From Bdellovibrio sp. NC01 (lineage in GTDB: Bacteria; Bdellovibrionota; Bdellovibrionia; Bdellovibrionales; Bdellovibrionaceae), in assembly GCF_006874625.1 (NCBI RefSeq), contig NZ_CP030034.1, positions 3,658,001-3,722,000 on the forward strand: 64,000 nucleotides of DNA. The letters run 5' to 3'. Made by a program: the position numbers and the translations under genes. Positions 17,876 to 20,414 of the stretch are shown one piece after another. The stretch's first letter is position 1; the number at the start of each line of letters is the position of its first letter. Under the pieces are notes generated by a model, which worked only from the letters and a program-made list of their open reading frames with translations, had not been told where the DNA came from and made no database searches.

Positions 17876-18871
17876 CTAATAGACGATACCCATCGCTGAT
17901 CTTACCTCTAAAAGAGTTGTCGCAGCCACTTGTCGTGCGTTGTTTGTGCCATTTCGCAAAAGATCTTTCACAAAAGCAGGATCTTTTTGATATTGCTCAC
18001 GGCGTTGGCGCATTGGCGCAATCAGTGCTTCCAAAATTTCGACAAGTCTTTTTTTCAACACACCATCACCCAAACCCCCGCGGCGATAATGTGCTTTTAA
18101 TTCTTCAACTTCAGTTTGATTTGCATCAAAGACATCTAAGAATGAAAACACGACATTGCCTTCAACCGTGCCGGGATCGCTGACTTTCAAATGATTTGGA
18201 TCGGTGTACATCAAGTTTACTTTTTTGCGAATATCATCTGCTGAATCGCCCAGGTAAATAGCGTTACCCAGTGATTTACTCATCTTCGCTTTGCCATCAA
18301 TGCCTGGCAGTCTGCCGACAGTGCCGATCAACGATTTCACTTCTTTCAAAGTTTCAGCTTTGTACAAAAAGTTGAAACGTTTTGCGATTTCATTGGTCTG
18401 TTCAATCATCGGGCTTTGATCTTCACCCACGGGCACAAGATCCGCTTTGAAAGCCAAGATGTCTGCCGCTTGCGAAATCGGATAACAGAAGAATCCTGTT
18501 GGGATTGAATCCTTCATATTCTTCTGACGAATTTCATCTTTAATAGTTGGATTACGTTCTAAACGTGCGACTGTGACTAAATTTAAAAAGTAACAAGTCA
18601 GTTCGTAAAGTTCCGGCACTTGTGATTGGATAAAAAACGTATTAAGTGCTGGATCTAATCCCGTCGCTAGATAATCAAGCATCACTTGTTCAACGTTATT
18701 TCTAACTAAAGAAGGATTGTCGTAATTATCTGTCAGCGCTTGGTAGTCTGCGATGATCACGAATTGTTTGTAATCGTTTTGTAGTTTCACACGATTTTGC
18801 AACGAGCCCACGAAGTGCCCTAAATGCAACGGACCTGTCGGACGATCTCCGGTAAGAATAACTGGTTTCAT
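17876..18871 (-). CDS. trpS: tryptophanyl-tRNA synthetase
   Basis: 331-residue class I synthetase that charges tRNA-Trp. The HIGH-type signature is [11 protein letters not shown] (residues 13-23) and the KMSKS signature is present exactly as KMSKS near residue 199. [13 protein letters not shown] and [16 protein letters not shown] are typical of bacterial TrpRS. A ribosome-binding site AGAGGA lies before the ATG. The 142-base leader contains a Trp-rich leader ORF (18951-19013). The CBS gene follows in the same operon. Confidence 0.95.
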
Positions 18872-18922
18872 AGTTTCCTCTAATGGAAGTTTTTAAGCGA
18901 ATTTCGAAAATGAAAAGTCGGA

Positions 18923-18968
18923 TGCCGTGATGACGGCAAAAAACAGAGAATTAGTGGCGCCAGCGCCA
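18923..18968 (-). promoter_or_regulatory. paired hairpins in the trpS leader
   Basis: Hairpin 1 (18955-18968, TGGCG/CGCCA with the Trp codons in it) and hairpin 2 (TGCCGT/ACGGCA around 18923-18938) are separated by the leader stop codon and a six-T run. Hairpin 2 is not followed by a strong U-run, so the exact attenuation mechanism is not evident. Confidence 0.45.
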
Positions 18969-19013
18969 ACCAAGAACGAATGCAGAATGTTTGAAGAAAA
19001 CTGCGTCTGCCAT
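18951..19013 (-). CDS. TrpL-like leader peptide upstream of trpS
   Basis: 20-codon ORF, MADAVFFKHSAFVLGWRWRH, ending 79 bases before the trpS ATG. Its C-terminal part (AFVLGWRWR) resembles the E. coli TrpL leader (IFVLKGWWR). The two Trp codons sit inside a GC-rich hairpin (18955-18968) and a second hairpin follows at 18923-18938. The ATG lies seven bases after a promoter -10 hexamer, so the message would be leaderless. By analogy, ribosome pausing at the Trp codons would report uncharged tRNA-Trp and alter trpS expression. Confidence 0.7.
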   Translation of the reverse strand: MADAVFFKHSAFVLGWRWRH

Positions 19014-19049
19014 GAGGCTATAATATCATTATATGAAGTGTCTTTTCAA
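19014..19049 (-). promoter_or_regulatory. trpS promoter
   Basis: Read leftward: TTGAAA (-35, 19049-19044), an 18-base spacer, TATTAT (-10, 19025-19020), then six bases to the leader ATG. The spacer includes the stop codon of the upstream epimerase gene. An overlapping TATAAT at 19033-19028 is an alternative -10. Confidence 0.6.
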
Positions 19050-20414
19050 GGGCAGGTAATGCCGTTTGATGTATCTTTTAAATTCCGTCATGACCCATAA
19101 ATGAAATAAAGCTTGGCTATAAGTATAAACGTACCAAGGTAAACGCGGTTTAAAATCATGGATGGCGGCAAGACATGCTTCGCCCCCCAGAACTTCGCGG
19201 AACTCTAAGCGCCCCCGGCCGGTTTTTTGCGACAACGCGCCCCCGCGCACATAGAAAAGCTGACGATTCTTCCAACTACGATCCGGGGCATACTCTAATT
19301 CTAAAAGTTTAAATGCGGGGAACACACTTGAAAACGTAACCCAGCGGCCGTCGACATCGACCTTCACGATAAATGGTCTTAGTTTTGGCAAGAACTCCAT
19401 ATAAGCCTTCGCCATGTCTTCAGCACTCCACCCTGCCGGGAGCGGCAAACGCTGAACAGAGCGGGCCATATAGCGACCGACGTCAGGTGTTTTAAATGCA
19501 TGAGGCGCCTGCTGCCCGCTATAATTTTCAAGTGCTTCTTTTAAAGCGTCTTCAATTCCCAAAGGTTTCACGCCTGGAATTTCAAATTTCTTTTGTGAAC
19601 GCGCGACGAGTGAAAACTTCAAACTTTCAATGAGTGGATCGACTAAACCCTTGGGCGCTCCGGTGATGCCACACACCCATAACGCAGAAATATGTGGAGT
19701 CAGGAACGGCACCGGAATGCATTTACGTTTTAAACCTTTGATGTCAGCAAGTTTCAACATCATATCGCGATAACTTAAAATATCAGGGCCGCCTAAATCG
19801 AATGTTTCATTGTAGTATTCTGGTTTTCCTAAAACATATTCAATGCTGTCACACACGTCCTTTAAAGCCACGGGCTGATTCATCGTACTTGTCCAAGAAG
19901 GACATAACATCACCGGCAAACGCTCGACCAATCTTGCCATGATATGAAACGACGAACCTTCAGAACCGATCACCACGGCTGCTCTGAAAATAGTTGCGGG
20001 AACTTTGCTGCGATTAAAAACTTCTTCGACTTCTTGGCGACTGGCCAAGTGTTTCGACGGGGCCCCTTGATTTTCGGGAATAAGGCCACCCAGGTAAATA
20101 ATCTGTTTTACTTCAGCACGTTCCGCGGCTTTCACGAAGTTATCGGCAACAATTAAATCGAAATCTTCAAAAGTGCCTTGCGATAGGTGAGATGAAGGTC
20201 GCATCGAGTGCACGAGGTAGATCGCAACATCCGCGCCTTCTAAGCCTTTTTCAGAATCAATAAGGCTAAAGAGATCGCAGTTACGCCACTCAATATTAGG
20301 ATTATCGCTTTTCTTATTCGCGCGACTAAGAGCAATCAATTGATGATCTTTGGAAAGCTTCTGCAAAAGCGCTTTACCAACGAAACCGCTCGCGCCAGCA
20401 ATTGCGATCTTCAT
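19029..20414 (-). CDS. NAD(P)-binding epimerase-like protein with C-terminal DUF2867-like part
   Basis: 461 residues. Residues 1-300 are an extended-SDR/NmrA-like Rossmann domain: IAGASGFVGKALLQKLS (GxxGxxG, residues 5-21), AIYLVHSM, IIYLGGLIPE, and RAAVVIGSEGSSF. Residues about 315-450 form a second domain of the kind often fused to such proteins (DUF2867-like, SRPBCC-related), ending in a segment rich in aromatic residues. Substrate unknown; possibly a cofactor or lipid-linked sugar (inference). Its stop codon lies inside the trpS promoter. Confidence 0.75.
   Translation of the reverse strand: MKIAIAGASGFVGKALLQKLSKDHQLIALSRANKKSDNPNIEWRNCDLFSLIDSEKGLEGADVAIYLVHSMRPSSHLSQGTFEDFDLIVADNFVKAAERAEVKQIIYLGGLIPENQGAPSKHLASRQEVEEVFNRSKVPATIFRAAVVIGSEGSSFHIMARLVERLPVMLCPSWTSTMNQPVALKDVCDSIEYVLGKPEYYNETFDLGGPDILSYRDMMLKLADIKGLKRKCIPVPFLTPHISALWVCGITGAPKGLVDPLIESLKFSLVARSQKKFEIPGVKPLGIEDALKEALENYSGQQAPHAFKTPDVGRYMARSVQRLPLPAGWSAEDMAKAYMEFLPKLRPFIVKVDVDGRWVTFSSVFPAFKLLELEYAPDRSWKNRQLFYVRGGALSQKTGRGRLEFREVLGGEACLAAIHDFKPRLPWYVYTYSQALFHLWVMTEFKRYIKRHYLPLKRHFI

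Follow-up and report, generated by a model that had tools for sequence, protein, structure and literature searches.

In Escherichia coli, the trpL leader governs biosynthesis genes, has a Shine-Dalgarno sequence and operates by a switch between 2:3 and 3:4 pairing. Trp leaders have also been described upstream of trpS, the gene for tryptophanyl-tRNA synthetase (TrpRS). The trpS gene of Streptomyces lividans is preceded by a mapped leaderless leader, MMTRTCTQLWRAA followed by a stop (TrpL2), with two hairpins and no U-tract (PMC8079986). Candidate trpS attenuators had been predicted in Streptomyces in 2005, including one at trpS2 in S. avermitilis (PMC1262725), and the title of Vecchione and Sello 2010 (cited in PMC4787780) announces ribosome-mediated attenuation of the gene for an auxiliary, antibiotic-resistant TrpRS in S. 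coelicolor. Two properties of such enzymes are given in a review, namely that TrpRS II is induced by radiation damage and that Streptomyces TrpRS1 is indolmycin-resistant (PMC9437257). Outside Streptomyces, ribosome profiling in Caulobacter crescentus found that the trpS mRNA carries a small translated leader CDS (PMC4117421). Our search of the literature found no report of a Trp leader before trpS in Bdellovibrio. Here we describe a short ORF upstream of trpS that we consider likely to be a leaderless Trp leader gene, by which an auxiliary trpS would be made inducible by a shortage of charged tRNA-Trp.

The candidate leader ORF and its promoter

The window is the whole 64,000-nucleotide stretch of DNA that was analysed. 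Its relevant features are listed in the direction of transcription:

19029..20414, minus strand: SDR-like gene (NAD-binding, 461 aa), upstream, whose 3′ end holds the -35 box
19044..19049, minus strand: -35 box TTGAAA
19020..19025, minus strand: -10 box TATTAT, with an 18-base spacer and an extended TG
18951..19013, minus strand: Trp leader ORF, ATG start, 20 aa (MADAVFFKHSAFVLGWRWRH), TAA stop, predicted leaderless
18960..18968, minus strand: Trp codons 16 and 18 (TGG CGC TGG)
18951..18973, minus strand: hairpin 1; the 5′ arm and loop hold the Trp codons, the 3′ arm the stop codon
18923..18938, minus strand: hairpin 2, TGCCGT-CATC-ACGGCA, with no U-tract directly after it
18876..18881, minus strand: Shine-Dalgarno sequence of trpS, AGAGGA
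17876..18871, minus strand: trpS, putative auxiliary TrpRS (TrpRS II type), 331 aa
17386..17862, minus strand: CBS-domain protein, 13 bases past trpS, possibly co-transcribed

A short ORF whose Trp codons lie close to its stop is present in the 5′ region of trpS, on the same strand. Between positions 19049 and 18869 the minus strand reads TTGAAA, 18 bases, TATTAT, 6 bases, ATG, 20 codons, TAA, 79 bases and the ATG of trpS. An earlier, sequence-only reading had placed a 20-codon Trp-ending ORF between a promoter and trpS; its sequence and coordinates (19013..18951, minus) were right, and the proposed TTGAAA-18-TATTAT promoter, with the A of the leader ATG as the seventh base after the -10 box and no Shine-Dalgarno sequence, was confirmed by sequence. 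No Shine-Dalgarno sequence is evident before the leader ATG in the window or in the leaders of the three related genomes described below (G034, G024 and G021). A second -10 candidate, a perfect TATAAT at 19033-19028, comes without any -35 box. The -35 box of the leader promoter sits within the last codons of the SDR-like gene, whose stop lies 3 bases before the -10 box, and therefore read-through from that gene is possible besides transcription from the leader promoter.

Such an ORF is rare by chance. When the 157-base gap upstream of trpS was put through 5000 dinucleotide shuffles, 0.1% of the sequences had an ATG ORF with Trp twice among its last eight residues, and none (0/5000) had one with Trp twice among its last six. 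A promoter match of 10/12 at the same distance was found at only 0.14% of the 2142 ATGs of the window.

trpS and its orthologues in the family

The product of the window trpS is a TrpRS (TIGR00233 above cut-off), and its closest solved structures are of TrpRS II (2a4m and 1yi8; E about 1e-123). A second trpS, 39% identical to the window copy, lies elsewhere in the same genome (G000:C1:1934615-1935580, locus L106) and the window gene is therefore an additional copy. By its sequence and by the divergent second trpS, the window gene is predicted to encode an auxiliary TrpRS (TrpRS II / TrpRS1 type), a point that goes beyond the earlier reading. The other gene is presumably the housekeeping copy. 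It and its equivalents (L096-L103, L108-L110) stand directly behind another gene, without a leader of their own. Among active-site residues, the window clade has Gln in place of the His43 that Geobacillus TrpRS and the housekeeping copy share, a difference that was given no weight. In G014 and G005 (L104, L105) the sole trpS is of a third type, 33-34% identical; the patchy distribution of trpS types across one genus suggests replacements. As to gene order, seven species (the window and six relatives) have the SDR-like gene directly upstream of trpS and the CBS gene behind it. No CBS match was present in the available flanks of the other three leader-bearing loci.

No trpA scored above cut-off in any of the 66 family genomes, with all 14 control genomes positive, so the organism is probably unable to make Trp. 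In its own genome, trpE (TIGR00564) gave a single match far below cut-off. The gene covered across the family was trpA.

Orthologues of trpS were sought in the genus (24 genomes), the family (66) and the class (144), which yielded 19 with at least 64% identity, all in this family. Querying the 24 genus genomes with the leader DNA returned short chance-level matches only, and homologous leaders were therefore located via trpS. A separate protein scan for trpS returned mostly Betaproteobacteria and Acinetobacter, with no locus from the family, and was used as the outgroup. The earlier reading had staked itself on conservation in relatives, and homologous leaders with Trp codons near the stop do precede 4/19 orthologues, in three genera: those of the window, of G034, of G024 and of G021, that is, of two other genera and of one other species of the window's genus besides the window itself. 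The three related leaders are MELTSTLHTPFLSVNWRLRA in G034, ending NWRLRA before its stop, MLMINRSSLISFGLFWWRFVA in G024, ending WWRFVA, and MLRSLISSFLSFSWWR in G021, ending SWWR. ATG leaders with at least two Trp near the end numbered three; shuffled sequences gave 0.19 on average and 2 at most. Moreover, the leader DNA alignments of the window genome (G000) with G034 and of G024 with G021 were each better than all 500 shuffles. The spacing of -35 box, -10 box and ATG is common to the window (10/12 match), G034 (TTGCGA-17-TATACT, 7 bases before the leader ATG; 9/12) and G024 (TTGATT-17-TAAATT, 6 bases before the leader ATG; 8/12), which, judged from the DNA alone, is as expected of a leaderless start. 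No promoter match at this ATG spacing is present in G021, where a further frame of the leader region is open as well.

The leader is absent in 15/19 orthologues, including that of the closest relative, G023 (TrpRS 87% identical), where a promoter-like TTGAAT-17-TATTTT lies directly ahead of the trpS Shine-Dalgarno sequence and a leader would not fit. In G011, G013, G015, G016 and G020 the SDR gene ends within about 6-14 bases of trpS. Other arrangements were also seen ahead of trpS. Four species (L090, L091, L092, L093) share a conserved 23-codon ORF, MIRWMILLASLVYFVDTLVAIQL, about 110-185 bases before trpS, with a conserved stretch downstream of it and no Trp near its end. In G017 (L095) trpS itself is seemingly leaderless, with TATACT 6 bases before its GTG start.

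A trpS tree united the 19 family genes (94/94). Its deepest split places G034 and G021 in one subclade and G000 and G024 in the other, such that the two best-supported leader alignments (G000-G034 and G024-G021) cross this split. Leader-bearing genes do not form one clade, and leader presence requires 4 changes on the tree, the same as for shuffled labels; ancestry with repeated loss therefore rests on the leader alignment. The simplest reading is that the leader would be ancestral and was lost several times, and independent gain or exchange of leaders is possible, being compatible with the tree. All four leader-bearing genomes have a separate trpS besides. The leader occurs in 4/10 genomes with two trpS versus 0/9 genomes with only this trpS (one-sided Fisher test, p about 0.05), an association that is suggestive only, the nine single-trpS genomes representing only two lineages on the tree.

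Hairpins and possible routes of control

Both hairpins of the earlier reading were recovered (hairpin 1, 18973-18951; hairpin 2, 18938-18923), and its remark that no clean terminator was visible held as well. Hairpin 1 has a counterpart in G034, G024 and G021. Its 5′ arm is formed or adjoined by a Trp codon in each of the four leaders, the stop codon falls in the loop, in the 3′ arm or just past it, and a second hairpin follows shortly downstream. Rfam gave no relevant match in the window region or at six trpS loci. When the four leaders were aligned with MAFFT, structure being disregarded, the Trp codons came out misplaced, and this alignment was left out of pair counting. We then modelled the stalled ribosome on the window sequence by constrained folding, taking minimum free energy (MFE) structures only. 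When we blocked the positions that a ribosome would cover on stalling at one or the other Trp codon, hairpin 1 was lost and hairpin 2 was unchanged, and no competing antiterminator pairing formed in these modelled stall states. Since hairpin 2 is unchanged, the classical exchange of 2:3 for 3:4 pairing was not found in the window by MFE.

We infer translation of the leader, pausing and the direction of control. Transcription would start at or beside the A of the leader ATG, and ribosomes would load straight onto the 5′ end of the mRNA. With Trp-tRNA plentiful, the ribosome would cross the two Trp codons and leave at the stop, hairpin 1 would close and trpS would stay low. With Trp-tRNA scarce, because a Trp auxotroph is starved of Trp or the housekeeping TrpRS is inhibited, the ribosome would pause at codon 16 or 18 and keep hairpin 1 open, and the message would reach trpS. 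Pausing on the Trp codons would presumably block an event that otherwise reduces trpS expression. For this output step, Rho-dependent termination is our first guess, followed by weak intrinsic termination at hairpin 2 or a pause there; translation initiation is a further candidate. After the leader stop, C exceeds G in the window and G034 and not in G024 or G021, and thus the reading of a Rho site remains a guess. A fuller scheme can be offered tentatively, as a possibility about which we are doubtful: a leaderless leader whose output is non-classical, by Rho or by translation, may control a backup, possibly inhibitor-insensitive TrpRS in a Trp auxotroph, and may have been ancestral in the family and dropped wherever the backup became the sole TrpRS.

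Classical attenuation of the E. coli trpL type, in which hairpin 2 would be an intrinsic terminator and a 2:3 antiterminator would form when the ribosome stalls on the Trp codons, seems to us unlikely. It would suit the position of the Trp codons within the first hairpin, as in trpL, the second hairpin of G021 (GGGG-UAAG-CCCC, then UUUUUAUU) and the strong terminators of several betaproteobacterial trpS leaders, for example ATGCCGCC...GGCGGCAT-TTT. However, no intrinsic terminator was found between the leader ORF and trpS in the window, G034 has a weak terminator match only, and hairpin 2 is not swapped for another pairing in the modelled window stall states.

It is improbable that the ORF arose by chance, its two TGG codons stemming from a GC-rich palindrome, GGCGCTGGCGCC, and having no part in the control of trpS. 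Although this palindrome alone provides most of TGG CGC TGG CGC, the closest relative has no leader, and the fold energy of the whole window leader is ordinary relative to shuffles (z -0.94), the ORF was matched by only 0.1% of shuffled sequences, related leaders that align significantly are present in a second species of the genus and in two further genera, and the rare geometry of promoter and ATG recurs in G034 and G024. Translational coupling or re-initiation only, by which the leader would raise trpS translation and tRNA charging would not be sensed, is very improbable even though re-initiation has been proposed as common at leader genes (PMC4833913), because there are 79 bases between the leader stop and the trpS start, trpS has its own Shine-Dalgarno sequence, and the Trp codons would have no reason to keep their place in all four leaders.

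Taken together, these data support the earlier reading in which a Trp leader would control trpS. If right, leader-peptide control of an aminoacyl-tRNA synthetase would be extended to a lineage seemingly unable to make Trp, which would therefore sense the charging of tRNA, as opposed to the output of a pathway. The leaderless Trp leaders that Streptomyces has before auxiliary trpS would also seem to have counterparts in a distant phylum. The arrangement points to a simple strategy by which a backup enzyme is induced when Trp runs short or TrpRS is inhibited, and the sister species without the leader are natural controls for testing it.

Comparison with known trpS and trp leaders

The comparison with Caulobacter crescentus, where a small translated CDS also precedes trpS, covers its position. 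With E. coli trpL the window leader shares the Trp codons in the first hairpin and charged tRNA-Trp as the presumed signal. It differs in controlling, as we propose, trpS, in having no evident Shine-Dalgarno sequence and in that a terminator and antiterminator were not found. We take the resemblance to E. coli TrpL as a common logic and not as homology.

In Betaproteobacteria (Cupriavidus, Herbaspirillum, Chromobacterium and others), leaders ending in Trp-Arg stand before trpS genes whose products are 60-65% identical to that of the window, and a Trp-ending ORF was present at 21/79 trpS loci against a shuffle mean of 1.15. Trp-rich leaders ending in WWRA or WWWRL were noted at L005, L010, L018, L020-L024, L027, L034, L036, L037, L039, L044, L048, L049, L053, L056, L077 and L079, some 120-210 bases ahead of the match to trpS. 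A clear intrinsic terminator follows in 10 of the 20 examined, being strong in Cupriavidus and Oxalobacteraceae. Unlike in the window, two or three Trp codons stand in a row in the betaproteobacterial leaders, and the leader region is longer.

The closest precedent is the trpS leader of Streptomyces, the anatomy of which is nearly the same. Both precede trpS, carry W-R near the stop and have two hairpins and no U-tract, with a leaderless start that is mapped in S. lividans and predicted here. As in the S. coelicolor case, so far as the title of Vecchione and Sello 2010 tells (cited in PMC4787780), the controlled gene would be that of an auxiliary TrpRS. In contrast to Streptomyces, the window belongs to a different phylum with no homology of leader sequence shown, has two Trp codons in the leader and a CBS gene behind trpS, and comes from a host apparently without trpA. 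A Trp leader before an auxiliary trpS is of a kind known from Streptomyces, and the lineage is new.
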